From NCBI RefSeq assembly GCF_029870955.1, contig NZ_PGFQ01000001.1, positions 372,001 through 436,000 of the forward strand: 64,000 nucleotides of DNA, given 5' to 3'. The DNA is from Sulfitobacter faviae. Lineage in GTDB: Bacteria > Pseudomonadota > Alphaproteobacteria > Rhodobacterales > Rhodobacteraceae. Every line of letters begins with the position of its first letter. Positions within the stretch are counted from its first letter, which is position 1. Under the pieces are notes generated by a model. That model made no database searches, was not told the origin of the DNA, and saw only the letters and a list, made by a program, of their open reading frames with translations. This document shows, one piece after another, positions 275 to 56,988 of the stretch. A program made the position numbers and the translations under genes.

Positions 275-1914
275 TCAGCGCGGTTCGCTGCGCAGCCCTT
301 TGTAGATCGTGTAACACATCACCAGCATCAGAATCGCGAAGGGCACCCCCGTCGCGGTGACCCCGGCCTGCAACGCCGACAGCCCGCCGCCGATCAGCAG
401 CACGATGGCGATCAACCCTTCGACAATGCACCAGAAGATGCGCTGCGGCACCGGGGCGTCAATCTTGCCCCCCGCCGTGATCGTATCGACAACCAGCGAC
501 CCCGAATCCGATGAGGTGACGAAAAACACCAACGCCAGAAGGATCGCGATGGTCGACGCGATCTTGGTAAAGGGAAGCTCATTCAGCATCCCGAAGAGCG
601 AGAGTTCCGGCGAATAGCTGTCGATCACATTGGCCTTGACCAGCGATGTCTCAGGGCTGGCAAGGATCTGATCGATCGCGATGCCGCCAAAGACGCCCAT
701 CCAGATGAAGATGATCAGCGACGGGATCAGCAACACGCAGATAAAGAACTCCCGCACCGTGCGCCCGCGCGAGACGCGCGCGATGAACATGCCCACGAAA
801 GGCGCCCAAGAGACCCACCACGCCCAATAGAACGCGGTCCAGCCTTCGCGGTAGGAATCATCCTCCCGTCCGAAGGGATTGGAGAGCGGGATGATCTCTT
901 GCGTATAGGCCAACAGACCGGTCCAAAACCCGTCGAGCCCCACCAGCGTCGGGCCGACGAAAAGCACGAAGAGGAAGAATAGGACCGCCACGATCATGTT
1001 CACCTCCGACAGGATCTTCACCCCGCCATCCAGCCCGCGCCAGACCGACACCAGCGCCACGGCGGTCACCAAGAGAATGATGATCACCTGCACATTGGTC
1101 GAAATCTCAAGCCCGAAAGCGAAGTTGAACCCTGCATTGGCCTGCTGCGCGCCAAGGCCAAGCGATGTGGCAAGACCAAAGAGCGTCGCGAAAACCGCCA
1201 GAATATCAATGATATGCCCCGGCCAGCCCCAGACCCGGTCACCCAGCAGGGGGTAGAAACAAGACCGGATCGAAAAGGGCAGCCCCTTGTTATAGGTGAA
1301 GAGCGCCAAGGCTAGCGCCATGATCGCATAGACCGCCCAACCGTGCAGCCCCCAGTGATAAAAGGTCGCCGCAAGACCCATGGCGCGGGCAGCCTCCACA
1401 TTCTCGGGAATGATCGAGCCATCCTCGGCAATCGGTAGGGGCACCCCAACGGGCCGGAGACGTTCATATGATACACCGGTTCGAGCACCCCAAAGAACAA
1501 CAGGCCAATCCCCATGCCCGCGGCAAAAAGCATAGCGAACCACGCCAGATAGGAATATTCCGGCACGGCCTCTTGCCCGCCGAGCCTGACCTTTGAAATC
1601 GGCATGAAAATCAGCGCAATGCAGAACAGAACGAAGATGTTCACGATGATCATGAACAGCCAATCCAGCTTGGTCGTGGCGAAATCGCGAACGGCGAGGA
1701 AGACCACCCCGGCCTGATCCGGGAAGAGCATGGTCAGCAGCACAAAGGCCACCGCCGTCAGGCCCGAGACCATGAAGACCGGGTTGTGAATATCAAAACC
1801 CAACGGGCCGAGGGATCCGTCGATATTGTCTTGGCCGACCTCGAAATCAGTCTCAATCTCATTCATATCGGGTGGCGTAGTGGAACTGGGCGTGCCGGGT
1901 GTGGGGTCGGTCAT
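275..1914 (-). CDS. BCCT-family betaine/choline/carnitine transporter (frameshifted in this sequence)
   Basis: Sodium- or proton-coupled importer of quaternary amines such as glycine betaine or choline, with twelve expected membrane helices. The N-terminal part (first about 160 residues, ending GVLEPVYHMN) and the C-terminal part (from VPLPIAEDGS) are in different frames. Adding one G in the run at 1443-1446 joins them as GPLGVPLPIAEDG and gives about 546 residues, normal for the family. The family signature WAWWVSWAPFVGMFIARVS is intact. The ATG at 1914 begins a hydrophilic N-terminal tail typical of the family. The substrate cannot be told from sequence. The shift is probably a sequencing error (see findings), but a real pseudogene is possible. 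Confidence 0.85.
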
Positions 1915-2118
1915 GGAGTCTCCGATCTTGATGCACTGTCTGAACCCCGCTCGGCAGGTAGCATGGCCAGAACAACAATTGTCGGAAGATCAATTAGCGC
2001 GCCTTTCCAAGGTTTCCCGAATAAAAACATGCCCCTGCGCAAGAAAATTACCCCGAGCCGCCACGGCCCTAGCCCCTGATAGGCCGGAAACCCTAACAAA
2101 ACCCTAAACCCAAAACGA

Positions 2119-2152
2119 AAAAGGCCCCGATCCTTTCGGATCGAGGCCCCAA
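2119..2152 (-). terminator. Rho-independent terminator of rpmB
   Basis: On the minus strand a GC-rich hairpin with arms around GGCCTCGATCC and GGATCGGGGCC and a GAAA-type loop is followed by a run of T. It lies about 20 bases after the rpmB stop, so it most likely ends that transcript before the BCCT gene. Confidence 0.8.
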
Positions 2153-2169
2153 TCTCTATGCGATAAGCC

Positions 2170-2469
2170 TTAGCTCAGCACATCGGCTGTCGCGCTGGAT
2201 TTCGCGATGGCCTTTTTGATTTTCAACGCGTTGTCGGACAGTTCAACGTCTTTGGCTTTTGCCAGGAACTTGTCCAGACCACCACGGTGGTCAACGCTGC
2301 GCAGGGCTGCGGCAGAGATGCGCAGCTTGAACGCGCGGCCCAGTGCTTCGGACTGCAACGACACGTCGTTGAGGTTCGGCAGGAACCGACGGCGTGTACG
2401 GTTGTTGGCGTGGCTTACGTTGTTGCCCGTCATCGGGCCTTTTCCGGTCAATTCGCAACGGCGCGACAT
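2170..2469 (-). CDS. rpmB: 50S ribosomal protein L28
   Basis: Structural protein of the large ribosomal subunit. The 99-residue product starts [12 protein letters not shown] and carries [16 protein letters not shown], both diagnostic of bL28. The start at 2469 is chosen because the protein then begins exactly at the conserved MSRRC; the open frame runs further upstream without family similarity. The gene is monocistronic, with its own terminator, and is divergent from pcs. Confidence 0.97.
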
Positions 2470-2738
2470 GGGTTCATCCTTTTGCTGTTGTGTCTTTCCA
2501 GCGATCCGGAAACACACATAACGTGGGGGCCGCGCAGAGCCGACCCTGAATTGGTTCGCTGGCTTTAAGGGGAATCGCGCTAGCCGTCAACCCGGTGCGC
2601 GGGACTTGGCCATATTTCCTGCGCCCGCCGCCGATCGCGTCAAGCATAGCTGCCCCGCCCTGCCCCGGCTACGCTGGTTTTTGCCATCGGGGCCAGAGTT
2701 TCCTTTGCATCCCCCCGGCGGATTTGCGATGCAGACGC

Positions 2739-3434: not shown

Positions 3435-3449
3435 ACCCGCCATTGCTCC

Positions 3450-3905: not shown

Positions 3906-3942
3906 CACTCTACTCTGCGCCAGAATTCACGCCTGCGAAAGA

Positions 3943-4073: not shown

Positions 4074-4111
4074 TGGTTCCCACGGGCGGGGCATTGGCGA
4101 CCTGACAAACG

Positions 4112-7133: not shown

Positions 7134-7504
7134 GGGGGGCGTCCTTTAGGCATTTGGGGGTTATTCAATCTCGGTCGGTGCGAATGGCTCAAGCACCTCG
7201 GCCCGGCGTCTCAATTGCTTAGAGCGCCGGGAATATAATTCGAATAATGATCGCGGTGAGGCGTGTCATGGGCCCGCTTATAAACAGCCCCCCTGCCCCG
7301 ACAAGCCCCGGAAGACGCGCGACAATCGGGGCTGAAAACACTGCCACAGTCGCCGCCCGACGGACTTAACATTTTTTATGATCCCCGGCCTTCGCTTGAA
7401 TTTTTCGGCGAAAACAGCATCATAAGGTATTCGACAAAGCTTTATTACCGCGGACTCCGTTTTGGGGAAACCGCGACAATTCTAATGGGCAGAAAGACCT
7501 GCGT
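7134..7504. other. Intergenic region between divergent ileS and the Crp/Fnr gene
   Basis: About 370 bases without a gene. It must hold the promoters of both flanking genes. I see an inverted pair AGCCCCG (7304-7310) and CGGGGCT (7327-7333) and AT-richer stretches near 7230-7250 and 7370-7440, but no riboswitch or tRNA pattern that I recognise. Confidence 0.4.
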
Positions 7505-8253
7505 GTGACCATCAAAGACACCTTTTATCACGATATGGCCGTAAAACCGTCGGGCATGGTCGACCACCTAAGCGGCGCGCAATGGGCCAAGCTTGCCCCG
7601 CTGATGACCCAACACGAGCGTTTCACGCCCGGAACCGTGATCAGTCGCAGGGGGATTTTCTGGATCACAGCCTGTTGCTGCTCGATGGGTTGATCGCCCG
7701 CAGCGTGCCGCGCGGACAGCGTGCCCGCAGCACCTTCGTCGCTCTCCAATTCCCCGGTGAGTTTGTCGATCTGCACGCCTTCCCGCTGAAACAACTCGAC
7801 CATGATGTGATCTCGCTGACCGATACCCATGTCGCCATCATCTCGCATGAGCCGCTGCGCGAGTTGCTCAATGGCGATGTCGAGATGGCCCGGAAACTCT
7901 GGCTGATGACCTTGGTCGATGCCTCCATCCACCGCCATTGGGTGATGCGCAACAGCGCCATGCGCGCGCTGGCGCGGGTGGCGAATTTCCTGAGCGAATT
8001 CGATGCCCGCATGACCGCCGCCTATGGGATGGAGCGTCAGAGCCTGCCCTTCAGCCTGCGCCAGACCGATATCGCCGATGCCACCGGCCTCACCTCCGTC
8101 CATGTCAGCCGCACCCTGCGTGAGCTGCGCGAGCATGGCTGCTGCGCCGTGACGGGCGGCAAACTGCTGATCCACGACCGCGCGGGGCTGCATAAAGTGG
8201 GCCAGTTCGAGCCTGCCTACCTCTATATGCCCCGAGCCGAAGCGGCGCTTTAG
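7505..8253 (+). CDS. Crp/Fnr-family transcription regulator (frameshifted in this sequence)
   Basis: DNA-binding regulator with an N-terminal cyclic-nucleotide-type sensor fold and a C-terminal winged helix. The first about 50 residues (to VISRRG) lie in one frame and the rest (from DFLDHSLLLLDG) in another; one added G in the run at 7650-7654 restores VISRRGDFLDHSL and about 249 residues. The C-terminal helix-turn-helix reads LRQTDIADATGLTSVHVSRT, the usual Crp-type recognition region. There are no cysteines placed for an Fnr iron-sulfur cluster. The GTG at 7505 is a weak start; ATG 7535 is possible. It overlaps the end of the convergent glycosyltransferase gene by 4 bases. Confidence 0.82.
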
Positions 8254-9406
8254 CCCGCCTCTGCCAGAGGCTGCGGCGCACCTTCCACCTGCAAAGCAAC
8301 CGCCGGATAGGTTTTACGCGGCAGCGCGACATCCCTCTGCGCCCGGGCCGCGTGATAGAGCCGTTCGAACTTCGTCACCATCGCCTGCGCATCAAAGAGC
8401 CGTGCCACACGGGCGCGGGGCACTTCGGCGGGAATATCGCGCGCCTGTAGCAAGGCCTGCGCCAAGGCAGCCGCGCCATCCCCCGCCGCGATGACACCCG
8501 CCTCGCCAAGCACCTCCTCAACCGCGCCATGCGGGGTCGCGGCAACAGGCAGGCCCGTCGCCATCGCCTCCACCGCGGCAAGGCCAAAGGGTTCCTCCCA
8601 CTGCGGGGTGAAGAGCGCCACCGAGGCCCGCCCATAGGCCGCCCCAAGCGCCGCCGTTTCCAGGTGCCCGACATAGGCCACATCGCCATAAAGATGCGGT
8701 CTTACCATATCGTTAAAGTAATCCTGATGCTCGACCACCCCGTAGATGCGCAGGGGCACCCCTGCGATCTGCGCCGCCTCTGCCGCCAGATGGGTGCCCT
8801 TGGTCGGGGTGATCCGCCCCGCCCAAACGGCGCTGCCATCCCCCGGCCCGCCTTGGGGCCATTCGTCAAGGTCGATCCCGTTGTGCACCACATGCGACGT
8901 GTCGGGCGCGCCCTCGGGCCACCAGATGCCGCGTTGCCGGGCCGAGACGACAGAGGACAGATGCCATGGCGCCGCCCCATCCATCAGCGCAGCGCGCAGC
9001 ACTTTGAAGGGCGGAATATGCAGCGAGGTCACCATCGGCAGCCGCTCCGCCCGCGACAGGCGCGGCAGGAAGCGGTGCAGCGCGTTGTTGTGCACCACGT
9101 CAAAGCCACCCTCCAGCAAGAGCCGCGCAGCGCGGGCATAGCAGGCGTCGAGGTGGTCGTTCAGCGCGTCGGTGCCGTGAAAGTCATGCCATGGAAAACG
9201 CGCGTCGTAATGCGCGTCACAGATCGGCAGCAGCTTCACCCCCGGCGGCAGGCTCGCCGCGCTGTCCTCGCTGGCCAATAGGGTCACCTCATGCCCGCGT
9301 TCGGCCAAGATTCGGGCAAGACCGTGGGTAAACGCCTCCATCCCGCCCTTGAAGGGGCGGCGATGGGATGGCGAATATGGCCGACGATGGCGATGCGCCG
9401 GGTCAT
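8250..9406 (-). CDS. Glycosyltransferase family 4 protein (frameshifted in this sequence)
   Basis: GT-B fold transferase using a nucleotide sugar; last gene of the 13523-to-8250 operon. The N-terminus MTRRIAIVGHIRHPIAA and the remainder from PFKGGMEAF are in different frames; one added G (plus strand) in 9354-9357 joins them into about 385 residues. The GT4 features are visible: a glycine-rich loop FKGGMEAFTHGLA, the donor-binding WAGRITPTKGTHLA, and the EX7E-type motif in EEPFGLAAVEAMATGLPV. ATG 9406 overlaps the stop of the preceding gene as ATGA, which supports this start and indicates translational coupling. Acceptor and product are unknown. Confidence 0.85.
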
Positions 9407-10347: not shown

Positions 10348-11476
10348 GTAAGTCTCCGGTATCTTTGGGTGTTTCTAATAGCAGCTGGTCGGTCAGGCCG
10401 ATCAGCCAATTGGCCGTCTCTACGGCGGCATCCTCATTGACCAAGGCCCGTTGCAGGGCCGGGTCATGGGCATCGAAGGTGTCTTGAATCGCGCAGCGCC
10501 ATGCCGCGGCGGAAGACGGAAAATGCGGCAGGTGATGCGCCGCCCCCGCCCGCGCCAGCGCCTCGGCCTTTTCGACCTGTTCGTCGAAATAGCGCCACTC
10601 CGGCACGGCGAGCCACGGGGTCTCTGCCGCGAGGATCTGGTGGCAGGTGGTGTTCCCGGTCGAGGCCACGACCATATCCGCCGCCGCCAGATAATCCGCC
10701 GCGTTATCGACCCAGCCGTGATGGCGCAGGTTGGCGGGTTCGGTCGCATGCCAATCACGCGCCATGCGCCCGATGGTGATGAAAGCCGTCTCGGGCATCG
10801 CCCGCGCCGCGATGCCGAAGGGGGCGGAGGCGAACCCCGTGCCGCCCCCGCCCGACATGACCAGCACCATGCGCTGCTCTGGCCCGACGCCAAGCCTCTC
10901 GCGCAACCTGTCCCGCCGCGCGGGATCGGGGCGTTTCACATCGACGCCCAAGCCCCCGGCGAAATGCGTCTTGGCCATATGCCGCGCGGGCCAGTCCGGC
11001 TGCGCCAGCGCCTTGGCGGCGGGACAAAGCAACCCGACCGCCCCGTCATAGGCCGCCCGATGCCCCGGATCGCCGCGCTGACCGTGTTGCAGCACCTTCA
11101 CATGCGGCACCGAACAGATCCGCGCAAGCTGCGCCACCTCAGCCGAGACATCGCTGATCATCAGCACCGGATTGGCGCTGGCGAACCAAGCGGCCAGTTG
11201 TGCCATGGCCTGCCGGATGCCGGGCCAGCCAAGCGGCGCGCAATGCACCATATCCGGCGCGCTGGTGGTGTCGTTGATGTCCTCGGCCCCGGTCGCCTCG
11301 AAAAGTGATGGCAGGGTGATGACCTCCACCGCCCGGGTGAAGGTGGGGAAAATGTCCGGTTTCGCGCAGAAGACGGTCACCGGCTGGCTCTCGGGCAGCG
11401 CGTTGACGACCGCCGCGCAGCGCTCCGCATGGCCGCGGCCCTGATGGTGGACGAAGTAACCGATGGGCCGCGTCAT
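10319..11476 (-). CDS. MurG-like (GT28-type) glycosyltransferase
   Basis: GT-B protein of 385 residues. The N-terminus GYFVHHQGRGHAERC is a glycine/histidine-rich first Rossmann loop as in GT28/GT1 enzymes. The C-terminal half has the loop VMSGGGGTGFA and a MurG-like acceptor/donor segment ADMVVASTGNTTCHQILA. No membrane segment is evident. It starts in a four-base ATGA overlap with the sucrose-phosphate-synthase-like gene and runs into the family 2 glycosyltransferase. Role inferred only from context: a step in making a glycan or glycoside begun by the upstream fusion enzyme. Confidence 0.8.
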   Translation of the reverse strand: MTRPIGYFVHHQGRGHAERCAAVVNALPESQPVTVFCAKPDIFPTFTRAVEVITLPSLFEATGAEDINDTTSAPDMVHCAPLGWPGIRQAMAQLAAWFASANPVLMISDVSAEVAQLARICSVPHVKVLQHGQRGDPGHRAAYDGAVGLLCPAAKALAQPDWPARHMAKTHFAGGLGVDVKRPDPARRDRLRERLGVGPEQRMVLVMSGGGGTGFASAPFGIAARAMPETAFITIGRMARDWHATEPANLRHHGWVDNAADYLAAADMVVASTGNTTCHQILAAETPWLAVPEWRYFDEQVEKAEALARAGAAHHLPHFPSSAAAWRCAIQDTFDAHDPALQRALVNEDAAVETANWLIGLTDQLLLETPKDTGDLHDVVHPIRA

Positions 11477-13523
11477 TGCGCCACCATCTTCACCGGCGGT
11501 TCCATCGCGTTGAGGGCGAAGCCGAAGGTTTCCAACCCCTCTAAGACCCCAGCCGCATGGGCCGCGCGGGCGTGGTAGAGCCGTTTGCCGCTTAGGCGTT
11601 CGCGCAGCCCGTCCATCGCATTGCCGACCAAGATGCCCCGACCCGGGCCATCCTCCACCGCCTGCAACATGTCGAAATCATTGCCACTGTCCCCGGCCAC
11701 CACAACCCGGTCCATCGGCATGCCCAACCGCCGCGCGGCGGCACAGACGGCAGGCCCCTTGCCCGCCGCCAAGGGCAGAACATCGATCAGCCGCCCATGC
11801 GAAGCCACGATCTGCGCCGCAGCACCGCGCCGCGCCAGATGCCGCTCCAACCGGCGCGCCGTGCGCATGTCGCCGAAACCGCTGAGCTTCCACCGCCGCT
11901 GCTCGACCGGCGCTTGCCAGTTAAAGCCGAAGTCCTTCAGCGCCCGCTCCACCCCGGCCCGGTCCCATCCGGCGTCAAGCTTTTGGGCAAAACGCTCATC
12001 CAGACACAGCCGCCCCTCGGCATCGGGCAGGTAGACCTCGGTGCCGACAGAGGTGATAAAGACGCGCGGGCTGGGTAGGTTCCAATCGCGCAGGATGCGG
12101 CGGGCTTCCGGCAGGCTGCGGCCCGTGGCGACGGCAAAAAGCGGGCGGTCGCGGGCGATCCATGCGTTGAAGAGGGCTGCGGAAGGTGCACAGCCCGTCA
12201 GCGTGTTGTCGATATCGCTGGCAAGCAAGACCGGCGCAGGCGTCGTCACTGGCGCGGCGTGGCGGATATCTTCGCAGATGTGCTGCACGTCCTCGGCCCA
12301 TTTCGACCAGTCGTAGCGCCCGACATGGGCGCGCCCGGCCTCAGATGCCTCGGCCCAGAATGCGCGATCGTCCAACAGCTTCAACAGCGCCGCTTCAATC
12401 GCATCCATGTCACGCGGCGGCACACACAGACCATGGCCAAGGTCCGCCACGATATCGGCAGGCCCGCCTTCGCGCGTGGCCACCACCGGCAGGCCATGCG
12501 ATGCCGCCTCCAACATGGTCAGGCCAAAGGGCTCATGCAGTGCGAGGTTAACAAAAACCCCACCGGTCTGCGCCGCGCGGTCATAGAGGGCCGCCACATC
12601 GCCCTGCGTATGGCTCGGCGGCAGCGCCACTTTGCCGCGCAGTTCCGGCACCTCCAACGTCTGGCGCAGGCGGATCAGCTCCGCGCGGGCCTCTGCATTC
12701 GCCTGAAGCGCATCGCCATGCTGGCCGGCAAGGATCACAAGGTTCGCCCGCGCCTGCAAAGCGGGGCTTTGCGCATAGACCCGCGCCAGGGTCGCAAGGT
12801 TCTTGCGGGCCACGGGGCGCGCCACGGCAAGCAGCGTCGGGCGGTCGGGGTCGCTTAACTGATCGGCCAAAAGCGCACGGCCCGCCCCCGCCTCAGCCGG
12901 GCGGCGCAGCGACACGCCCGGAGAGACGCGGTGCACCCGCGCCTGCGCATCCGCCCCATAGGCCGCGACCTGCACCTCGGCCTCATCGCGCGAAGAGAGC
13001 ACCACCGCATCGGCCTCCAACAGCGCGCGGCGCTCCGCCGCCACGCGCGGGGCATCCACCTTAGCCCCTGACTTGCTCAAAGCCAGCGAATGGGGGGTAT
13101 AGATCACCGGAATGCCGAACCGCGACCGCGCCGCCAGCGCCAATTGCGCCGCATCGGCGAAATGCGCGTGGATCACATCCGGCAGCCGTTTGGCCTGCGC
13201 CAAGTCCTCAAGAAACGCCTCAACCAGCGCGGGGATTTCCGCGGCGAGGTTTTCCTTGCTCAGATACCCCCGCTCCGCCGTCCAAAGCCGCCGGATCGAC
13301 AGGCTGCGGCTGACCTGCTGCTCGGTCTGGGCATGCACGGCCCCAAGGCTCGGTTCATCGAAAGCACGGGTCACGATCTGCACCGCATCCACATCGCCCC
13401 GCGCCGCCTGCGCGCGGGCCGCCCCAAGATATAGGCGATGTGACCGCCGGTATCTTCGGTCACGCCATAGTTGACAGACGGCGCCGTGAGGCAGCCCCCG
13501 AGGGCAATGTGACAAATGAACAT
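11473..13523 (-). CDS. Sucrose-phosphate synthase/phosphatase-like fusion (GT4 + HAD; frameshifted in this sequence)
   Basis: Two-domain enzyme of about 683 residues. Residues about 1-460 are a GT4 domain resembling sucrose-phosphate synthase: the N-terminal loop YGVTEDTGGHIAYIL, then RGYLSKENL, YTPHSLALSKSG and the nucleotide-sugar motif EPFGLTMLEAASHGLPVV. Residues about 465-683 are a HAD-IIB phosphatase like sucrose-6-phosphate phosphatase, with DIDNTLTG, ATGRSL and GDSGNDFDMLQ. One added G in the run at 13422-13425 restores the N-terminus. ATG 13523 is chosen because AAGGAG lies 8 bases before it and the conserved loop follows. First gene of a four-gene operon. Sucrose synthesis fits the family, but another phospho-glycoside product is possible. 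Confidence 0.8.
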
Positions 13524-13674
13524 GAATGGGTCTCCTTATGGAGGGGTGACCCCCCTCACGGGCCATCCGTTCCGATAACAAATGTTAATGCATACATCGC
13601 TGGACAGCGCGGTTGGACGTCCTAGCTGCCTGCCATTGAACCCCGCCTCTCTCCCCCCAATCAGAGCCGTCGTG

Positions 13675-14453
13675 ATGCCCTCAGAAATCCCCCGCGCTAC
13701 CTGTTCATCGGCGGGCTGCACCGCTCTGGCACCTCGCTGGTCAACCGCTTGGCCAATGCCCTGCCCGGCGCGGGCGGCATCACCGGATCGGCGGCGCCCG
13801 AGAATGAGGGGGCCTACCTGCAAGGGGCCATTCCCCATACGGCGCAATCCGGGCGGCCCATGCATTTCGCGACCAACCCTGAGGAACATCTGACCGAGGC
13901 GCATCCGCTCAACAGTTTGGAGACGAAGACCCGGCTGGCGCAGGACTGGGCGCCGTGGTTCGCCCCGGACCTGCACTGGCGGGTCGAGAAGTCGCCGGTG
14001 AACCTGACCCGCATGCGGCTGATGCAGCAACTCTTTCCCATGTCGCAATTCATCGTGGTCCTGCGCCACCCCGAGGCCGTCGCCGGCTCGGTCGCGTCAT
14101 GGGTCGATGCCCCGGCGCAGGCGTTGATCGATCATTGGATCGCGGCGCAAGCCCAGATGCTGGATGACCTGCCCTATCTGCATGCGGTGATGGTTCTGCG
14201 CTACGAGGATATCGTCGCCGACGCCCCCCGCGCCCTGCGCCGGATCGCGCGTTTCGTCGACTTGCCTGAGGCGGCATTGCCCGAAGGCATCGCGGATGGA
14301 AACCAGACCTACGCCGGAGCTACGCAGATGACGAAGGCACAGGCGGCTGAGGCCGCGCGATGGGGCTATGCCCCCGGGTTGCAGGTCTCGCCTTGGCCCG
14401 GTCTGGTCCAGCACCCGCTGCGCGCCGTGCGCGAAGCGGTCGAGGCAGCCTGA
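13675..14453 (+). CDS. Sulfotransferase family protein (frameshifted in this sequence)
   Basis: PAPS-dependent sulfotransferase-like protein of about 259 residues. The 5'-phosphosulfate loop reads FIGGLHRSGTSLVNRLA and the 3'-phosphate motif is FIVVLRHPEAVAGSVASW; both are characteristic. The ATG at 13675 (MPSEIP) and the rest of the gene (from RYLFIGG) are in different frames; one added C in the run at 13689-13693 gives MPSEIPPRYLFIGG. An in-frame start further upstream at 13582 cannot be excluded. Divergent from the four-gene glycosyltransferase operon, it may sulfate that pathway's product; this is inference from position only. Confidence 0.8.
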
Positions 14454-20593: not shown

Positions 20594-22074
20594 ATGGCAA
20601 CGGAACCGCAGGGCAGCCAGTGGAAGACACTGGACAAGGACCTCAACCGCATTTCGCAAGTCGAACTGGCCGCGACCTATGTCGCCCGCCCCCTCGTGGC
20701 GCCGGGCATCGCGCTGGCCTTTATCGTGGTGGCAGGTGCCGTTGCGGCGGTAATCTTCGGGCAACAGCCCTCCAGCTTTGTCGTGATCGCCGCGGCGGTC
20801 TTTGGCGCCTATATGGCGGTGAACATCGGCGCGAATGACGTGGCCAACAACATGGGCCCCGCCGTGGGGGCTAATGCGCTGACCATGGGCGGCGCCATCG
20901 TTATCGCGGCCTTGTGCGAATCCGCCGGGGCCTTGCTGGCGGGGGCGATGTCGTCTCGACCATTTCCAAGGGCATCATCGACCCGGCGAGTGTCGCGGAC
21001 ACGCGCATCTTCATATGGGCGATGATGGCGGCGCTGGTCTCCTCCGCGCTCTGGGTCAACCTTGCCACATGGGTCGGCGCGCCGGTCTCGACCACCCATT
21101 CGGTCGTCGGCGGGGTCATGGGCGCGGGGATCGCGGCAGCGGGCCTTGGCGCGGTGAACTGGAGCTCGATGAGCATGATCGCCGCAAGCTGGGTGATCTC
21201 GCCCGTATTGGGCGGCGCCGTAGCGGCGATGTTCTTGGCCTTTATCAAGGCGCGCATCCTCTACCAAGATGACAAGATCGCCGCTTCGCGCACTTGGGTG
21301 CCGGTGCTGGTGGGGCTAATGGCCGGGGTCTTTGCCGCCTATCTGGCGCTCAAGGGTCTCAAAAAGATCATCAGCATCGATATGCCGGTCGCCCTGATCA
21401 TCGGGCTTGTAACCGGGCTGGTGGTCTATGCCATCTCCGCCCCGCTGATCCGGCGCGCCTCGGAAGGGATGGAGAACCGCAACCGCTCGGTCAAAACGCT
21501 CTTTGGCCTGCCGCTGGTCCTCTCTGCCGCGCTGCTCAGCTTTGCCCATGGGGCCAACGACGTGGCCAATGCGGTCGGCCCGCTGGCGGCAATCGTCCAT
21601 GCGACCGAGTTCGGCGGTTTCGAGGATAAGGTGAGCATTCCCACATGGGTGATGATCATCGGGGCCTTCGGCATCTCCTTCGGTCTGTTCCTGTTCGGGC
21701 CGAAACTGATCCGCATGGTCGGCAGCCAGATCACCAAACTGAACCCGATGCGCGCCTATTGCGTGGCGCTTTCGGCGGCGATCACGGTGATCGTGGCAAG
21801 CTGGCTCGGCCTGCCTGTGTCCTCCACCCATATCGCTGTGGGCGGGGTCTTTGGCGTGGGCTTTTACCGTGAATGGCATATGGAGCGCCGCCTGCGCCGG
21901 ATCGGGGCCAAGACCGGTGAGGTCAAGCGTATCGCCAAGGAAGAGCGCCGCCGCCGCAAGCTGGTGCGCCGCTCGCATTTCATGACCATCGTCGCGGCTT
22001 GGGTGATCACCGTGCCCGCAGCAGCGCTGCTCTCTGGCATCGTCTTTTGGGTGCTGAACGCCTTCGTAAACTAA
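20594..22074 (+). CDS. pitA: Inorganic phosphate permease, PiT family (frameshifted in this sequence)
   Basis: Low-affinity phosphate (metal-phosphate) symporter with about ten membrane helices. Both duplicated PiT motifs are present: GANDVANNMGPAVGA in the first half and GANDVANAVGPLAA in the second, plus VSTTHSVVGGVMGAG. The frame breaks after ALLAG; one added G in the run at 20941-20945 restores ALLAGGDVVSTISKG and about 493 residues. ATG 20594 begins a hydrophilic tail followed by the first helix. No accessory PhoU-like gene is adjacent. Confidence 0.9.
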
Positions 22075-38429: not shown

Positions 38430-40105
38430 TTACTCGTCGTCGCCTTTCAGCGCCGCACCAAGGATGTCGCCCAAGCTCGCGCCGGAGTCGGAGGAACCGT
38501 ACTGCTGTACCGCCTCTTTCTCTTCCGCGATCTCGCGTGCCTTGATGGAGACGCCCAGACGGTGTGCTTTCGCGTCGACGTTGGTGATGCGCACGTCGAC
38601 CTTGTCACCGACCGAGAAACGCTCGGGCGCTGTTCGGCACGGTCACGGCTGAGGTCGGAACGACGGATGAAGCTCTTCATGCCTTCGTATTCGACTTCGA
38701 TGCCGCCATCTTCGATGGAGGTCACGGTCACGGTCACGATCGAGCCGCGCTTCACGCCGCCCACGGCTTCGGCGAACTTGTCACCGCCGACGTTCTTGAT
38801 CGACAGCGAGATGCGCTCCTTCTCGACGTCCACTTCGGAGACAACGGCCTGAACCACGTCACCTTTGCGGTAGTCTTGGATGGCTTCTTCGCCGCGCTGG
38901 TCCCAGCTGAGGTCGGAGAGGTGAACCATGCCGTCGATGTCACCGGGCAGGCCAACGAACAGACCGAATTCGGTGATGTTCTTGACTTCGCCTTCGACCT
39001 CGGTGCCCTCGGGGTGGGTCTCAGCAAAGACTTCCCATGGGTTGCGCATGGTCTGCTTCAGACCAAGGGAAACGCGACGTTTGGCGCTGTCGATTTCCAG
39101 AACCATGACTTCGACTTCTTGCGAAGTGGAGACGATCTTGCCGGGGTGCACGTTCTTCTTGGTCCAGGACATCTCGGAGACGTGGACCAGACCTTCGACA
39201 CCGGGCTCCAGCTCGACGAATGCGCCGTAGTCGGTGATGTTGGTCACGCGGCCGCTGTGCACGGAACCCAGCGGGTATTTCGCGCCAACCAGATCCCACG
39301 GATCTTCCTGCAGCTGCTTCATGCCGAGGCTGATGCGGTGGGTCTCTTTGTTGATCTTGATGACCTGAACCTTGATGGTCTCGCCGATCGACAGGATCTC
39401 GGACGGGTGGTTCACGCGGCGCCATGCCATGTCGGTGACGTGCAGCAGGCCGTCGACACCACCAAGGTCAACAAACGCACCGTATTCGGTGATATTCTTG
39501 ACCACACCATCGACGGTCTGACCTTCGGTCAGGTTGCCAATGACTTCGGCACGCTGTTCGGCGCGGGACTCTTCGAGGATCGCACGGCGCGATACAACGA
39601 TGTTGCCACGACGGCGGTCCATCTTGAGGATTTGGAACGGCTGCTTGAGACCCATGAGCGGGCCTGCGTCGCGCACGGGGCGCACATCGACTTGGGAGCC
39701 GGGCAGGAATGCAACTGCGCCGCCGAGGTCGACGGTGAAGCCACCTTTGACACGGCCAAAGATCGCGCCTTCGACACGCTCTTCTGCGGCATAGGCTTTT
39801 TCCAGACGATCCCAGGCTTCCTCACGGCGGGCCATTTCGCGGCTGATGACGGCTTCGCCACGCGCGTTTTCGACTTGGCGAAGGAAAACTTCGACTTCGT
39901 CGCCAACTTCGATTTTGGGGGATTCGCCGGGATCAGCAAATTCTTTCAGCTCAACGCGGCCTTCCATTTTGTAGCCGACGTCGATGATGGCTTGGCCCGC
40001 TTCGACAGCGATCACCTTGCCTTTGACGACTGTGCCCTCTTGGGGCGTGTCCATTTCAAAGCTTTCGTTAAGAAGCGCTTCGAATTCGTCCATTGCTTTA
40101 GTCAT
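38430..40105 (-). CDS. rpsA: 30S ribosomal protein S1 (frameshifted in this sequence)
   Basis: Six-S1-domain mRNA-binding ribosomal protein, essential for initiation on most mRNAs. The product starts MTKAMDEFEALLNESF and repeats of GxVxNITEYGAFVDL type are visible. Near the C-terminus the frame slips after SDLSRDRAEQRP; one added base in the GGG run (plus strand) at 38625-38627 restores PERFSVGDKVDVRITNVDAK and the terminal SLGDILGAALKGDDE, ending at 38430, about 558 residues. Because S1 is essential and the alternative tail is Arg/Ser nonsense, I treat this as a sequence error. Confidence 0.95.
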
Positions 40106-42210: not shown

Positions 42211-43562
42211 ATGTCCAGTCACGGCAGCCCCATTCCCATGTCATCGCGCGCCTGCGGGCCGCTTAGCGGCACCGCCGAAGTGCCCGGCGACAAGTCGATC
42301 TCGCACCGCAGCCTGATCCTTGGCGCTATGGCTGTGGGCGAGACCACGATCACCGGGCTTTTGGAGGGGCAAGACGTGCTCGACACCGCCAAAGCCATGC
42401 GCGCTTTCGGGGCCGAGGTGGTCGACCACGGCGGCGGTTCCTATTCCGTGCATGGCGTGGGCGTCGGCGGCTTTGCCGAGCCGGACAATGTGATCGATTG
42501 CGGCAATTCCGGCACTGGTGTGCGGCTGTTGATGGGGGCGATGGCGACCTCTCCGATCAGCGTGACCTTCACGGGCGATGCCAGCCTCAACAGCCGCCCG
42601 ATGGCGCGGGTGACCGATCCGCTGGCGCTGTTTGGCACGCAATCCGTGGGCCGCGCCGGGGGCCGCCTGCCGATGACACTGGTCGGCGCCGCCGAGCCTG
42701 TGCCGGTGCGCTACACCGTGCCCGTGCCTTCCGCGCAGGTGAAATCCGCGGTGCTGCTGGCGGGGCTGAATGCGCCGGGCAAAACCGTGGTGATCGAGGC
42801 CGAAGCCACCCGCGACCATACCGAACGGATGCTGGCGGGCTTTGGCGCCGAGATCACGGTTGAAGAGACCGACGAGGGCCGCGTCATCACCCTGACCGGC
42901 CAGCCCGAGTTGAAGCCGCAGCATATCGACGTGCCGCGCGACCCCTCCTCCGCCGCTTTCCCGGTTTGCGCCGCGCTGATCGTGCCCGGCTCGGACGTGC
43001 TGGTGCCGGGCATCGGGTTGAACCCGACCCGCGCAGGGCTGTTCACCACCCTGCGCGAAATGGGCGCGGATCTGACGTATGAAAACGAACGTACCGAGGG
43101 CGGCGAGCCTGTGGCCGACCTGCGCGCAAAGTTCTCGCCCAACCTCAAGGGGATCGAAGTCCCCCCGAACGTGCGGCGAGCATGATCGACGAATACCCCG
43201 TGCTCTCTGTCGTTGCAGCCTGTGCGACGGGCGAGACCGTGATGCGCGGCGTCAAGGAACTCCGCGTCAAGGAAAGCGACCGGATCGAGGCCATGGCCAG
43301 CGGCCTGCGCGCCAATGGGGTCGCGGTCGAAGACGGGCCGGATTGGTGGACTGTCAAAGGGCTGGGCCATGGCAATATCCCCGGGGGTGCGACCTGCCAA
43401 AGCCATCTCGACCACCGTATCGCCATGTCGTTCCTGATCCTTGGCATGGTCGCACAACAGCCGGTGCAGGTGGACGATGGCGGGCCCATCGCCACCTCCT
43501 TCCCGATTTTCGAGCCGCTGATGGCCTCTTTGGGTGCACAGGTCGAACGGTTGCCTGCGTGA
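42211..43562 (+). CDS. aroA: 3-phosphoshikimate 1-carboxyvinyltransferase (EPSP synthase; frameshifted in this sequence)
   Basis: Sixth step of the shikimate pathway. Two pieces (to GIEVPP; from [15 protein letters not shown]) are in different frames; one added C in the run at 43161-43166 gives [16 protein letters not shown] and about 450 residues. Signatures: [46 protein letters not shown] and [12 protein letters not shown]. The segment [10 protein letters not shown] has Ser where class I enzymes have LRxRPM, pointing to the class II type. The stop overlaps the next start (GTGA). Confidence 0.95.
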
Positions 43563-44730: not shown

Positions 44731-45911
44731 TTACACAGCCGTTTTCAACTGATCGACCAGATCGCGGCGCTCCCAGCTGAAACCGCCATCCGCGTCGGGC
44801 GCGCGGCCAAAGTGGCCATAGGCCGCCGTGCGCTGGTAGATCGGCTTGTTCAACTGCAAATGCTCACGAATGCCGCGCGGGGTCAGGTCAATGATCTGGC
44901 GGATCGCCTTTTCGATCGCCGCGTCATGCACGTCACCGGTGCCATGGGTGTCGCAATAGATCGACAGCGGCTCGCTCACGCCAATCGCATAGCTCAACTG
45001 GATGGTGCATTTGTTCGCCAGCCCTGCCGCCACGACGTTCTTGGCCAGATAGCGCGCCACATAGGCCGCCGAACGGTCGACCTTGGTTGGGTCTTTGCCC
45101 GAGAACGCGCCGCCGCCATGCGGTGCGGCCCCGCCATAGGTATCGACGATGATCTTGCGCCCGGTGAGGCCCGCGTCGCCATCCGGCCCGCCGATCACGA
45201 AAACGCCGGTGGGGTTCACGTGCCAGACGGTGTCGGCGTCGATCCACCCCTCGGGCAGCACCTCACGGATATAGGGCTCCACGATCTCGCGGATATCGGC
45301 GCTGGTCTGGCTTTCGCTCTCATGCTGCGTCGACAGCACGATGGAGCTTACGCCCACCGGTTTGCCGTTCTCGTAACGCACCGAGAGTTGGCTTTTCGCA
45401 TCGGGCCGCAGGGTCGGCTCGGTCCCGTCTTTGCGCACCTCGGCCAGACGGCGCAGGATCGCATGGGCGTAGTGGATCGGCGCGGGCATCAACTCGGGCG
45501 TCTCATCGGTGGCAAAACCGAACATGATGCCCTGATCGCCTGCGCCCTCTTCCTTGCCATCGGAGGCATCGACGCCTTGGGCGATATGCGCCGACTGCGG
45601 GTGCAGCAGATTGGTGATCTCACATGTCGCGTGGTGGAACTCATCCTGCTCGTAACCGATGTCTTTGATGCAGGCGCGGGCGATATCCTCGACACCCGCC
45701 AGATATTCATCGAGCTTGGTCTTGTTGGCCAGCCCGACCTCGCCCCGATCACGACGCGGTTGGTGGTGGCAAAGGTTTCGGCGGCGACCCGCGCTTCGGG
45801 TTCCTCGCTGATGAAAGCGTCGAGGATGGCATCGGAAATCCGGTCGCAGACCTTATCCGGGTGCCCCTCGGAAACGGATTCCGAAGTGAAAGTATAGTTC
45901 TGACGGGACAT
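44731..45911 (-). CDS. metK: S-adenosylmethionine synthase (frameshifted in this sequence)
   Basis: Makes SAM from methionine and ATP; essential. The N-terminal part ([20 protein letters not shown]) and the rest (from [16 protein letters not shown] and upstream) are in different frames; one added base in the run at 45743-45746 restores [14 protein letters not shown] and about 393 residues. Further signatures: [16 protein letters not shown] [13 protein letters not shown], and [23 protein letters not shown] 45911 ([13 protein letters not shown]) is preferred, with GGAG six bases before it inside the riboswitch. Expression is predicted to be shut by SAM/SAH binding to that leader. Confidence 0.96.
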
Positions 45912-45915
45912 GTAG

Positions 45916-45961
45916 TGCTCCAATAAAAATTACGCACCACGTCAGGAAGCCGTTGTGGTGC
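45916..45961 (-). promoter_or_regulatory. SAM/SAH riboswitch controlling metK
   Basis: On the minus strand, GCACCAC (45961-45955) pairs with GTGGTGC (45940-45934) around the conserved AACGGCTTCCTGAC, followed by an AT-rich linker and TTGGAGCA (45923-45916). This matches the known SAM/SAH riboswitch consensus (CACAACGGCUUCCUGGCGUG ... UUGGAGCA). The GGAG segment is both the pseudoknot partner of GCUUCC and the Shine-Dalgarno of metK, so ligand binding should block translation. Upstream arm AAGCCGTT (45975-45968), overlapping the lnt stop codon, is perfectly complementary to the aptamer core AACGGCTT (45954-45947). Confidence 0.92.
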
Positions 45962-45973
45962 TCTCCCAACGGC

Positions 45974-47493
45974 TTAGACAACCGCTGGTGGATGGTCAAT
46001 CGGCATTCCCGGGCTGCGACGGCGGGCCACGGCAAGCCCGGCAAGGCAGAGGGTCAGAAGCAGGATCAAAGGCAAATCACCGCTGCGGCTGTAGAGCGTG
46101 GGCGCCAGTGGCGCCGGCAGCGGCGCGTCGATGAAGCCTGCGGAATTGAGCGGCAGCGAAGCGATCACCCGCCCCTGCGGGTCAATCATCGCCGAGATCC
46201 CGGTATTGGCCGCCCGGGCCATGGGCAACCCCTGCTCGATCGCGCGCATCCGCGCTTGGGCCAGATGCTGGCGCGGGCCTGCGGCCTTGCCGAACCATGC
46301 GTCATTGGTGACCTGCATCAGGAAAGCGGGCCGCGCTGGCGCGGCGTTCACGTCATGGGCAAAGACGGCCTCGTAGCAAATCAACGGCAATGCGGCGCCG
46401 AGCGGCCCCAGATCCAAAACCTGCGCGCCCGGCCCGCTGGAAAAACCGTTCCCCTCCTGCGCGGCGAGGCCGTGGATCCCGAAACGCGCCATCAGATCGC
46501 CCAAAGGCATATATTCGCCAAAGGGCACGAGGTGATGTTTGTCATAAAGCTGATCGACCGCGCCGCCTTCGTCCAACACAACAAGCGAGTTGTAATAGCG
46601 CATGTTCGACCGACGCTGCACGCCCAGCACCACCGGCACGTCCGAGGCTGCGCCGATCTCATCCAAGGCGCTCCCCGCCATGTCCAACGACCATGGGATC
46701 GCGGTCTCGGGCCAGATCACCAGATCGGGGGCGGCGCCTTTGTCCTGCGGCGCGGCGGCGGTGTAGTCGAGCTGGCGGGAGAAATAGAATTCAAAGGTAT
46801 CGGGGTTCCACTTGTCGCGTTGCGCGGCATTGGGCTGCACCAAACGCACCACGTTCTCGGTCAGCACCGCGGGCGTCGCTTGCGGGGGCAGCAGCAACAG
46901 CAGCACCGTCGAGAAGGCCAACGCCCCCTGCCCCAACCGCAGGCTCAAAGGGCCGCGCAGCAGCAAGATCGCGGCGATGGCGAATAGCCAGAGGTTCAGC
47001 GCATAGGGGCCGACCCAAGCAAGGCCCTGCCCCGCCATCACGCCGACCAGTCCTTGAGCGGGCATGGCCCATGGAAAGCCCGTGAAAATATAGGCCCGCA
47101 GCAGTTCCACCGCCGCCCAAGTCAGCGCCAGCGCTAGCTCACGCTTCGGCGCGATCCAACGGGCGAGGCCAAAGGCCAGCCCCCAGAACAGCGCCATGCC
47201 AGCGGCCAGCAGGATCAGCGCAAAAGGCGCCATCCACCCATGCCGCGCCACATCGACCATGAAGGGCGAGACGATCCACTGCAGCGCATGCAGGAAATAG
47301 CCAAAGCCAAAGCCCCAGCCCAAAAGCGCCGCGCGCATTGGCCCGCCAGATTGCGCGCGAAACAGCCAAAACGCCGCCACCAGCCCGGCAAAGAGCAGAA
47401 TAGGCAGTTCATAAGGCGCTTGCCCGAAGGCTGCGATGGCCCCGGCGAGGGGGCCAGCAGCAACCGGCCCCGCATCGCCAGCCGTTGCCTCAT
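45974..47493 (-). CDS. lnt: Apolipoprotein N-acyltransferase (frameshifted in this sequence)
   Basis: Inner-membrane enzyme adding the third acyl chain to lipoproteins. N-terminal membrane helices are followed by a nitrilase-like domain with catalytic Glu in VIWPETAIPW, Lys region YDKHHLVPFGEYMPLGD and Cys in LPLICYEAVF. The open frame continues without a stop into corC, but the family N-terminus is found in another frame: MRQRLAMRGRLLLAP, joined by one added base in the run at 47449-47453 to LAGAIAAFGQAPYEL. That gives a start at 47493 and about 506 residues. Its stop lies at the metK riboswitch leader, so read-through transcription into metK is likely. Confidence 0.9.
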
Positions 47494-48390
47494 CCCCGGC
47501 CCCTTGGGTGCGGACCCGCAACCGTTTGATGCGGCGCGGGTCGGCGTCGATCACCTCGAACTCCGGCCCATCGGGGTGCAAGACCACCTCGCCCCGCGCA
47601 GGCACGCGGCCCGACAGCATGAAGACCAAGCCGCCAAGCGTGTCGATCTCTTCTTCGTCGACGGTTTCATGATCGGTCAGGGAATGGCCAATCTCAGCCT
47701 CAAAATCCCCAGCGGGGTCTTGGCGAGTGCCAGATAAGTGCCGGGCTTTTCGACCGTCCAATAGGTGCCCTCGTCGACGTCATGTTCGTCTTCGATCTCA
47801 CCTATGACCTGTTCGATCAGGTCTTCGATGGTCACCAGCCCGTCGACACCGCCATATTCGTCGATCACCAGCGCCATATGCCGCCGCTCGGCCTGCATTT
47901 TGGTGAGCAGCACGCCGATGGTCATCGACGGCGGCACATAGACCAAGGGCCGCAGCAGGGTGCGCAGATCGAACTTGGTGTTTTTGCCGTTGAAACCGTG
48001 GTTTAGCGCCAGGTCTTTGAGGTGGACCATGCCCACGGGCGTATCGAGCGTGCCATCATAGACCGGCAGGCGGGTCATCCCGCTTTCCTTGAAGACCGAG
48101 ACCAGCTCATCCAGCGTGGCGCTGACCGGCACGGCGGTGATATCCGCCTTTGGGATCGCCACGTCATCGACCCGCATCCGGCGCAGGTTCATCATGCCAT
48201 GGCCCGTGGGCCGCTCGGCCTCTGCCGAGGTCTCTGGCGTGTCGTCCTCGCTGTCCGATGGGCTTAGCGCCTCGAACACCCGAGAAAAGAAATTACCGGT
48301 GCGCATCGCGCCATCATCCGGCTGCTCATGTCTGTCTTCATCTGTCAGCGCGCTCTGCGCCGCGTCAGATGATCCGTCTGTATCGCCCAT
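47490..48390 (-). CDS. corC: CorC/HlyC-family CBS-domain protein (frameshifted in this sequence)
   Basis: Protein of about 300 residues with two CBS domains and a CorC_HlyC (transporter-associated) C-terminal domain, linked to magnesium/cobalt efflux or envelope homeostasis. CBS parts include MRVDDVAIPKADITAVP, GMTRLPVYDG and MALVIDEYGGVDGLVTIEDL. The frame breaks at AKTPLG; one added base in the run at 47707-47710 restores AKTPLGDFEAEIGHSLTD. The exact end is uncertain: a stop overlapping the lnt ATG (47490) needs one more base near 47508-47511, otherwise the stop is at 47409. No membrane domain is present. Confidence 0.85.
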
Positions 48391-48417
48391 TGGGTCCCGT
48401 CTGTGTTACAAAGCCCC

Positions 48418-51411: not shown

Positions 51412-51755
51412 ATGATGAGAACGCTACTCGCCACCGCCGTCACCGGCCTGCTTGCCCTGCCCGCTTTCGCGGGGGTGTGAAATACGCCTATCACAACCAA
51501 GGTGTGGCCCATCCCACGGGCAATGTGATCCACGTCAGCTGCTACCGTGGCCCGTGGAACGACGTGATCTGGGACCGGCCAAACTCGGTCTTCGTGGATA
51601 GCCTCGTGGCCGTGGGCTATGACTTTGCCACCGCCCATGCCGTGGCAGAACGGGTCTGCCGGGATCACACACTCGTCGGCAACCCCGAGGGGCTGAAAGC
51701 GACGATGAAGCGGATCTTTGCGGATGCCGCATCGCACCGCAAACACAACTACTGA
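51412..51755 (+). CDS. Small secreted protein of unknown function (frameshifted in this sequence)
   Basis: About 114 residues. The N-terminal MMRTLLATAVTGLLALPAFAG is a clear signal peptide but runs into a stop; one added G in the run at 51471-51475 restores PAFAGGVKYAYHNQGVAHP and the remainder, with VSCYRGPWNDVIWDRP and two cysteines (SCYR, RVCRD) that could form a disulfide. I do not recognise the family. It is probably periplasmic. Convergent with miaB. Confidence 0.7.
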
Positions 51756-53237: not shown

Positions 53238-54106
53238 ATGCGGTATCGCGATCTCGACCAGCTTATCCAAGAGGGCCGCACGGCGTTGAACACAGGCCCT
53301 ATCGCCATGATCTTGGTCGAGGATAAGGTTGAGGTCGACACCACCCTGCGTCACCACCAACAGGCGGGGTTCGACAGCGTCGTGGCGCTGATGCCCCCGG
53401 TTTCGACCTGCCCCGCGACTTAGAGGAAAGCGTGCTGCGGGTCGACTATGACGCCACCGCCGAAGCCGCGTTGGAGCGGGCAGTGAACCGCATGATCGCG
53501 GCGGTGCCGGGGCAATGGATTTATTACTGCTACAACGCCGAATATCTGTTCCACCCCTTCAGCGAGACACGCAACGTCAAGGAATTGCTGGCCTTTCATA
53601 GCGAAGAGCGGCGCGATGCCATGCTGGGCTATGTGGTGGACCTCTATGCGCTGGACCTTAAGCAATACCCCGATGCCGTTTCACTCGATCAGGCGCATTT
53701 GGACCGATCGGGCTATTACGCGCTGGCGCGCAAGGATGCGGCCCGGCAGGGGCACCCCAAGGAACGGCAGCTTGATTTCTTTGGCGGGCTGCGCTGGCGG
53801 TTCGAGGAACATGTGCCGCTGCAAAGCCGCAAGATCGACCGTATTCCGCTGTTTCGCGCCAAACCGGGGCTGAAGCTGCGCGGCGACCACACGCTCAACG
53901 ACGAGGAATACAACACCTACGCCTGCGAGTGGCATCACAACGTCACGGCGGCGATCTGCTCGTTCCGCACGGCCAAGGCGCTGAAGCGCAATCCCGGCAG
54001 CCGCTATGACATCCCCACATTCCAATGGCACAACTCCGAACCGTTCGAGTGGCATTCCCGGCAGTTGATGGATCTGGGTTTGATGGAGCCGGGGCAGTGG
54101 TTTTGA
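53238..54106 (+). CDS. Glycosyltransferase-like protein of unknown specificity (frameshifted in this sequence)
   Basis: About 289 residues. The N-terminal part ([25 protein letters not shown]) and the remainder (from [11 protein letters not shown]) are in different frames; one added C in the run at 53394-53398 restores [16 protein letters not shown]. The fold start ([16 protein letters not shown]) and [12 protein letters not shown] look like a family 2 glycosyltransferase, but a DXD motif is not obvious, so the call is tentative. Other features are a Trp/His-rich C-terminus ([13 protein letters not shown]). ATG 53238 is used; ATG 53187 is possible. Confidence 0.6.
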
Positions 54107-55130: not shown

Positions 55131-55140
55131 GAAAGACCCC

Positions 55141-55919
55141 ATGCGCCCCCTTCTGAAAAGACCGGCGCAGACCTTGCGCTGATCCAGCTTCTGCCCAATG
55201 CGCTGACGATCACCGCGATTTGCGCAGGGCTTTCGGCGATCCGCTTTGGGGTGCAGGGCAACTACGTGCTGGCGGTGCAGCTGATCCTTTTGGCCTGCGT
55301 GCTGGATGGGTTGGACGGGCGGCTTGCGCGGCTCTTGCGGTCTTCCAGCCCGATGGGGGCGGAATTGGACTCGCTGGCCGATTTTTTGAACTTCGGCGTG
55401 GCCCCGCCGCTGATCCTCTATTTCTGGGCGCTGCAAGACATGCGCAGCGCGGCTTGGATTTCCGTGCTCGTCTACGCGGTCTGCTGCGTGGTGCGGCTGG
55501 CGCGGTTCAACGTCAACGACAAGGCCGAAGCCGCCAAGGCCAAGAACGGCGATGCGGTGGGCGAATCCGGCTCCTTCTTCACCGGCATCCCCTCACCCGC
55601 AGGCGCGCTTTTGGTGCTCTTGCCGATGACCCTGTCCTTTGCCTTTCACAACCGGCCCATTCTGCCGGATTGGATGATCTGCCTGCATATGGTGCTGATC
55701 GGTTTTCTGATGATCAGCCGCATCCCCACATGGTCTTTCAAAACCACCAAAGTCTCCCGACGTCATGTGAAATACCTGCTGGTAGGCGTGGCAATTTTCG
55801 CCGCCGCCCTGGCCACCTACGCTTGGACCACGCTCGTCGTGCTCTGCTTGGCCTATATCGGCATGGTGATCTGGGGGCTTTTGAGAGCACGGAAAACGAG
55901 TTTAACCAAAAGGAATTGA
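55141..55919 (+). CDS. pssA: CDP-diacylglycerol--serine O-phosphatidyltransferase (frameshifted in this sequence)
   Basis: Makes phosphatidylserine from CDP-diacylglycerol and serine; multi-helix membrane enzyme. The CDP-alcohol motif is complete: VLDGLDGRLARLL, then GAELDSLADFLNFGVAP. The start MRPPSEKTGADLALIQLLPN is recovered by one added C in the run at 55146-55150; without it the ATG frame stops after 13 codons. Restored length is about 259 residues. It sits between psd and pmtA. Confidence 0.93.
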
Positions 55920-55920
55920 A

Positions 55921-56538
55921 ATGGACATCAAGGCGGTCGAGACATCCTATGCCCGTTGGGCACCGATCTACGACAAGACCTTCGGCGCGCTGACCAGCGG
56001 CGGTCGCCGCCATGTCGTGGCCCATATCAACAAGGGCAGCGGCTCTGTCCTCGAAGTGGGGGTCGGCACCGGCCTGTCCCTGCCCCACTACGCGCCGCAT
56101 CTCTCCGTCACGGGCATCGATTTCAGCGATGAAATGCTTGCCAAGGCCCGCCAGCGCGTCACCCGCGAAGGGCTGCAACATGTAGCTGACCTGCGCCAGA
56201 TGGACGCGCGCGACCTCGACTTCCCCGATGCCAGTTTCGACACGATCGCCGCGATGCATGTGCTGTCCGTGGTGCCCGAGCCAGAGCGGGTGATGGAGGA
56301 AATCGCCCGCGTGCTGAAACCCGGCGGTCAGGTGGTCATCGCCAACCATTTCATGCGCACCACGGGGCTGCTGGGCTTTCTGGAAAAAGTCTCGGCCCCC
56401 TTTGCGAATACGCTCGGCTGGCATTCGGATTTCGAGATGGAAACCGTGCTGCAACAAGATGCGCTGGAGGTCGAGGACGAACGCGCCCTGCCGCCAATGG
56501 GCATGATGACCTTCCTGGTGTTGCGAAAACGCGGCTGA
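55921..56538 (+). CDS. pmtA: Phosphatidylethanolamine N-methyltransferase
   Basis: SAM-dependent methyltransferase of 205 residues, of the Rhodobacter PmtA type, which converts phosphatidylethanolamine stepwise to phosphatidylcholine. The SAM motif is VLEVGVGTGLSLPHY, followed by VTGIDFSDEMLAKA and the motif MHVLSVVPEPERVM. Start ATG 55921 immediately follows the pssA stop. Position after psd-pssA strongly supports this substrate over other methyltransferase roles; ubiE-type activity is the main alternative. Confidence 0.86.
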   Translation: MDIKAVETSYARWAPIYDKTFGALTSGGRRHVVAHINKGSGSVLEVGVGTGLSLPHYAPHLSVTGIDFSDEMLAKARQRVTREGLQHVADLRQMDARDLDFPDASFDTIAAMHVLSVVPEPERVMEEIARVLKPGGQVVIANHFMRTTGLLGFLEKVSAPFANTLGWHSDFEMETVLQQDALEVEDERALPPMGMMTFLVLRKRG

Positions 56539-56569
56539 TCACGCAGGCGGCAGGGCCTGCCCCGCCGGT

Positions 56570-56988
56570 TCAGGTCTTCCGGCGCAGCCGGATCACCACA
56601 TCGACCGAGGCAATCTCGGCCCCTCGGGCGCGTCGGGAAGCTGCGCGATCACCAACTCTTCCGAGGGCGCATCGGTCAGCTTGCTGTCGTCTTCCCAAAA
56701 GAAATGCGGGTGATCGTGGGTGTTGGTGTCGAAATAGCTTTTCGAGCCATCCACGGTCACCTCCTGCAACAGCCCCGCATCGCAGAACGCCCGCAGCGTG
56801 TTGTAGACCGTGGCCAGCGACACGGCCTCGCCCTGCCCCTTCGCAGCCTCGAACAGGCTTTCGGCGGTGACGTGACGGTCTTGCCCATCGCCTACCAGAA
56901 GACTTGCCAGCGTGACACGTTGGCGCGTGGGGCGCAGCCCGGCCTGAGCCAACCAGCGCGTTCCGACCTCTTGTACCTCTGCGGACAT
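56570..56988 (-). CDS. irr: Iron response regulator Irr (Fur family; frameshifted in this sequence)
   Basis: Heme-responsive Fur-family regulator that controls iron and heme genes in alphaproteobacteria. The winged-helix part has GLRPTRQRVTLASLLVG, HVTAESLFEAA and SLATVYNTLRAFCDAGLL; the His-rich segment THDHPHFFWED lacks the CxxC zinc motifs of true Fur. The C-terminus slips after PDAPEG; one added base in the run at 56620-56623 restores EGAEIASVDVVIRLRRKT and 139 residues. ATG 56988 has AGGGA upstream. Divergence from fabA is a conserved arrangement and supports Irr. Confidence 0.9.

Follow-up and report, generated by a model that had tools for sequence, protein, structure and literature searches.

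Background

Bacterial genomes assembled from nanopore reads alone are the closest described counterparts of the case reported here, in which seventeen genes on a 64,000-nucleotide stretch of the Sulfitobacter faviae chromosome (hereafter the window) each appear split into two reading frames at a short run of identical bases. According to passages of a study of nanopore reads, the length of such runs (homopolymers) is underestimated, mainly through deletions, and C/G runs are read less accurately than A/T runs (PMC8486125). Passages of the polishing study Homopolish describe an excess of pseudogenes in nanopore-only genomes (PMC8011154), and those of a study of R10.4 data indicate that the high-quality tier can be reached despite many frameshift errors (PMC9262707). 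As far as these passages go, the genome studied here is like such assemblies in run deletions that rise with length, in C/G runs faring worse than A/T runs, in frameshifts and in spurious pseudogenes, and no difference was found among the features tested. A further comparison of long reads with reference sequences, used here in excerpt, likewise describes deletions in homopolymers two to eight bases long, and includes one draft in which PGAP called 23.3% of the genes pseudogenes; it differs in that A/T runs gave more deletions there, whereas G/C runs dominate here.

Frame breaks in mononucleotide runs are also tolerated in endosymbionts by transcriptional slippage. There, long A runs in AT-rich reduced genomes are concerned, whereas the runs found here are short, consist of G or C, and include some in ribosomal RNA (rRNA).

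In this work we compared the window with the genomes of related bacteria and extended the comparison to other parts of the same genome. Judged from these sequences, the broken genes are very probably intact in the bacterium, and their splits would stem from homopolymer undercalling in a long-read assembly.

Methods

The window corresponds to positions 372001-436000 of the chromosome contig C1 (3,206,887 bases) in a genome of 3,830,987 bases and 5 contigs. A search with its IleS placed Sulfitobacter records at the head of the 80 loci retained. An 8-kb stretch of it was matched in 58/58 genomes sampled from its own genus, the window's genome included. Five congeners (working labels G026, G047, G030, G024 and G009) were aligned to the window; the alignment covers 63.2-63.7 of the 64 kb, with a DNA identity of 83-90% within long blocks. 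Because G026 and G047 are sisters (~96% identical) and hence not like-for-like controls, G030, which is about equally far from all other genomes, served as the sole control. Exact-position gap matching missed many sites, the aligner setting the gap in differing columns, and alignment gaps within 12-15 bases were therefore clustered and then summed.

The count of private one-base differences covered 262 kb in all, drawn from three regions of the chromosome (around 0.4, 1.5 and 2.5 Mb). Genes for the frame comparison were G026 reading frames chosen by codon periodicity, uncurated, and genes outside this set counted as non-coding when coding and non-coding DNA were compared. Interior differences are those left after 30 bases had been dropped at each gene end. 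For a run in which a private loss was called, the inferred length is one base more than that read in this genome; for all other runs it is the length as read. Gene names in the window were taken from NCBIfam and Pfam profile matches.

Results and discussion

The original prediction, made from the letters of the window alone, held that each of the seventeen genes had lost one G or C from a run and that all the changes were losses. Clustered alignment gaps bear out the missing base at 15 of the 17 sites, where all five congeners have one base more, and a multiple alignment adds the pssA site (55146-55150) as a sixteenth, again with one more base in 5/5 relatives. The site close to the start of the sulfotransferase gene (13689-13693) is supported with less certainty and is the weakest of the 17. 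The clustered count over five congeners merged it into a mixed cluster, and the local alignment displays no gap; all three relatives compared have one more base, but a difference of one base in the opposite sense lies close by, at 13672, in upstream DNA that aligns poorly. Counted by eye, the distance between the ATG and the corresponding codon is 24 bases in G030 versus 23 in the window. The positions given for the runs were correct apart from two that were off by one and lie, in the local alignments, at 1444-1447 (C-run) and 34529-34532 (G-run). In rpsA, an A adjoins the GGG in 5/5 relatives, and the base missing here is not necessarily a G. No gain was found among the seventeen sites, but the claim of losses only does not extend to the whole window, where private gains do occur. 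The same prediction had suggested a comparison with the genomes of relatives, and in this comparison the congeners are free of the breaks. At several sites, lnt 47449 among them, the local alignments of the congeners contain no run of that length, so that the loss tracks this genome's own run.

The excess of losses extends well beyond the window. The private one-base differences of this genome over the 262 kb comprise 96 losses and 17 gains, an imbalance that is not due to chance (sign test, P about 1e-14); the control G030 has 17 of each, G026 has 5 losses and 2 gains, and G047 has 3 losses and 1 gain. Per 100 kb, the three regions hold 37.5, 36.2 and 34.4 losses (56 or 57 in absolute number in the first, depending on the minimum alignment length used), and the excess is thus not a feature of a single locus. 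A plasmid contig was compared with named plasmid records over about 10 kb; two G-run losses came to light there (against 3/3 and 2/2 of the records covering the place), and no gain was common to two or more of the four named records for this stretch.

The losses depend strongly on the length and the base of the run. By inferred length, G/C runs were shortened in 2/6362 cases at length 3, 11/1873 at 4 (0.6%), 38/492 at 5 (7.7%), 29/88 at 6 (33%) and 5/6 at 7. The corresponding figures for A/T runs are 4/3405, 3/814, 2/186, 1/30 and 0/3, and the two kinds of run differ at length 5 (P=0.0004) and at length 6 (P=0.0006). The excess over the control sits in G/C runs of 4-7. The 344 kb compared from this genome contain no G/C run of at least 8; three relatives have 0.6-1.2 per 100 kb, a handful each. 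In a descriptive comparison of 83 shortened and 513 unshortened C/G runs the flanking bases were alike.

The 23S rRNA genes served as an internal control. The three copies of this genome (C1:354110-357011, 1113791-1116693 and 1907136-1910038) read 5G/5C, 4G/6C and 4G/5C at two runs, which, besides a few substitutions, hold the only indels among them. In the congeners the C-run has six bases in 20/20 loci (18 gene copies, two of which were fetched twice), and the G-run has five in 14/14 loci where the site was matched (12 copies); a first pattern had read this site in 7 loci and a looser one in 14/20, the other six giving no match. The 23S copies of this assembly carry false differences, and since 23S rRNA has no reading frame, recoding cannot explain them.

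Within protein-coding DNA, any frame-changing difference from the G026 genes was seen in 76/225 genes (134, 48 and 43 genes compared per region), and interior ones in 64/225, as against 13/225 in G030 and 0/222 in G047, the sister of G026. The interior one-base differences over the 225 genes amount to 72 losses and 10 gains. The earlier warning that protein calls from this sequence need correction is supported. Runs of at least 5 were shortened in 60/464 cases in coding DNA versus 12/118 in non-coding DNA (P=0.53, gene-edge runs set aside), from which it follows that selection left no mark on the losses. Third codon positions account for 76-79% of the substitutions relative to G026 in split genes and for 78-84% in intact genes, and this predominance indicates that the proteins of the split genes have been under constraint.

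Near-identical intact proteins were sought for two of the split genes, lnt and the sucrose-phosphate synthase gene, and were found for both. The intact Lnt P0001 of Sulfitobacter sp. 1A15299 shares 470/482 residues (98%) with the long Lnt piece of the window, and of the 15 residues at the start of P0001, 14 match the window's other frame. Similarly, an intact sucrose-phosphate synthase of 683 residues (P0121) is identical to the window piece at 641/649 residues (99%), and its N-terminal 34 residues are all encoded in the window's other frame. P0121 probably comes from another assembly, as it differs at 8/649 residues and the longest contig there (3,394,779 bases) exceeds the 3,206,887 bases found here.

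The seventeen genes are very probably not truly broken in the organism. The proposal of systematic homopolymer undercalling is strengthened by the excess of losses, their rise with run length, the G/C bias, their spread over the genome and the disagreement among the 23S copies, and we infer that an error of basecalling or consensus, rather than the true DNA, is the cause. The long-read consensus would record same-base runs, above all those of G/C, with one base missing, an error whose likelihood increases sharply with the length of the run, and a reading frame would be falsely broken wherever a shortened run falls in a gene. The platform was probably nanopore (R9-type), used without short-read polishing, as the pattern of losses suggests. 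A literature search on G/C deletions in PacBio data found nothing.

Some observations weigh against undercalling. Part of a long-read study reports that deletions associated with A/T were about twice as numerous in its data as those associated with G/C (PMC12007338), so that, as far as that part goes, a G/C bias is not universal. At length 4, runs were shortened more often in non-coding (4/310) than in coding DNA (6/1557), as expected if part of the losses are ordinary indels. In each region the third-position share is slightly lower in split than in intact genes, in a descriptive comparison. Some of the private indels are surely real evolution, as G030 too has 17 losses over the 262 kb. Finally, mutL itself (C1:1159524-1161148) yielded two separate profile matches (1-358 and 433-555) that lie in different frames, a feature that a real mutator strain would share.

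This last point touches the foremost rival explanation, namely that the losses are real and arose as slippage deletions in the mononucleotide runs of a lineage deficient in mismatch repair. Slippage too rises with run length, but the error rate also leads one to expect a broken mutL, probably another false split, and the mutS frame is open and full length. Moreover, rpsA, metK, kdsA and pssA, which are generally held essential, would be broken together with the 23S rRNA; runs of at least 5 are shortened equally in coding and non-coding DNA, and this genome and the control have the same number of gains (17 each). We regard such a lineage as very improbable. A mutL-defective strain with single-base losses in much of its longer G/C runs, essential genes included, that survives by slippage or suppression appears extremely improbable.

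Another possibility is that ribosomal frameshifting or transcriptional slippage, programmed or tolerated, reads through the shorter runs, same-base runs being typical slippage sites. However, the short form is present in 0/5 congeners at alignable sites and the congeners have the unshifted frame, so that the shift sites are not conserved; losses also affect non-coding DNA and 23S rRNA, which are not read in any frame, and read-through would be needed in 64 of the 225 genes, versus 13 in G030 and none of the 222 in G047. This reading had been judged far less likely from the outset, and its probability now seems close to negligible. Equally near to negligible is genuine pseudogenisation in a decaying genome, which would account for the many split genes, but the relaxed constraint expected in broken genes was not seen in the third-position share, substitutions in them still being mostly at third positions, the excess of losses over the control lies in G/C runs of 4-7, and near-identical intact proteins exist for both genes searched. 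All three rival explanations were rejected on these grounds.

If undercalling is the cause, the splits are a matter of data quality and not of biology, and not a real feature of the bacterium. Extrapolated from the excess of 79 losses in 262 kb, roughly 1,150 errors would be expected in the 3.83 Mb, and statements on gene loss, pseudogenes or the pangenome drawn from this assembly would be wrong. The assembly has a listed completeness of 100% although 64/225 compared genes have interior frame breaks, so that this score is blind to the problem.

The affected genes and sites of the window are collected in Table 1. Beyond the 17, the comparison yielded three coding losses, in the gnd-family gene, lnt and corC.

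Table 1. Genes and runs of the window affected by one-base losses (positions are those of the window)
Feature	Position	Strand	Site of loss	Evidence and remarks
BCCT-family transporter	275-1914	-	C-run 1444-1447	5/5 congeners one base longer; Pfam BCCT
Non-coding C-run, one base short	7288-7294		C-run 7288-7294	5/5 congeners one base longer; missed earlier
Crp-like regulator	7505-8253	+	G-run 7650-7654	Congener alignment; Pfam HTH_Crp_2
Glycosyltransferase	8250-9406	-	G-run 9354-9357	Congener alignment; Pfam
Sucrose-phosphate synthase	11473-13523	-	C-run 13422-13425	Congener alignment; intact 99%-identical database protein
Sulfotransferase family	13675-14453	+	C-run 13689-13693	Split close to start; weakest of the 17
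gnd family (6-phosphogluconate dehydrogenase)	18390-19846	-	Near 19809	Congener alignment; NCBIfam gnd; missed earlier
PHO4-family phosphate transporter	20594-22074	+	G-run 20941-20945	Congener alignment; Pfam PHO4
SseB-domain protein	26339-27144	-	G-run 26560-26563	Congener alignment; Pfam
kdsA	34422-35254	+	G-run 34529-34532	Congener alignment; NCBIfam KDO-8-P synthase
rpsA (ribosomal protein S1)	38430-40105	-	38625-38627	Frame lost near 3' end; NCBIfam rpsA
aroA	42211-43562	+	C-run 43161-43166	Two pieces are successive parts of TIGR01356
metK	44731-45923	-	C-run 45743-45746	Two pieces are separate parts of TIGR01034
lnt, two losses	45996-47493	-	G-run 47449-47453; near 46013	Congener alignment; second loss at 3' end, missed earlier
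corC, two losses	47490-48411	-	C-run 47707-47710; near 47497	NCBIfam CorC/GldE; second loss at 3' end, missed earlier
Congener-conserved gene	51412-51755	+	G-run 51471-51475	Congener alignment; no Pfam match at E 1e-5
Congener-conserved gene	53238-54106	+	C-run 53394-53398	Congener alignment; no Pfam match at E 1e-5
pssA-type CDP-alcohol phosphatidyltransferase	55141-55919	+	C-run 55146-55150	5/5 relatives one base longer; Pfam CDP-OH_P_transf
irr	56570-57057	-	C-run 56620-56623	Congener alignment; NCBIfam IrrA

Seven further private one-base losses, called against three relatives, lie outside genes or at gene edges. One of them, in the non-coding C-run of Table 1, is common to the comparison with all five relatives; the other six (25425, 36779, 57078, 57100, 62134 and 63290) may be ordinary evolution. 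The same three relatives disclosed seven private one-base gains (2623, 13672, 18280, 24089, 57116, 62001 and 63805), and one more was found at 63829 against G026; all window gains are intergenic or at most 60 bases from a G026-defined gene start.

The 5' end of metK is adjoined by a SAM/SAH riboswitch aptamer at 45916-45964 on the minus strand (RF01727, 62 bits).

Outside the chromosome, a stretch of the plasmid contig C5 (L112, 7945-17883) carries cation transporters, lspA, a cytochrome P450 gene and IS30. It shares 96-98% identity with plasmids from Sulfitobacter faviae, a further Sulfitobacter and Paracoccus sediminicola, which points to recent exchange between the two genera.

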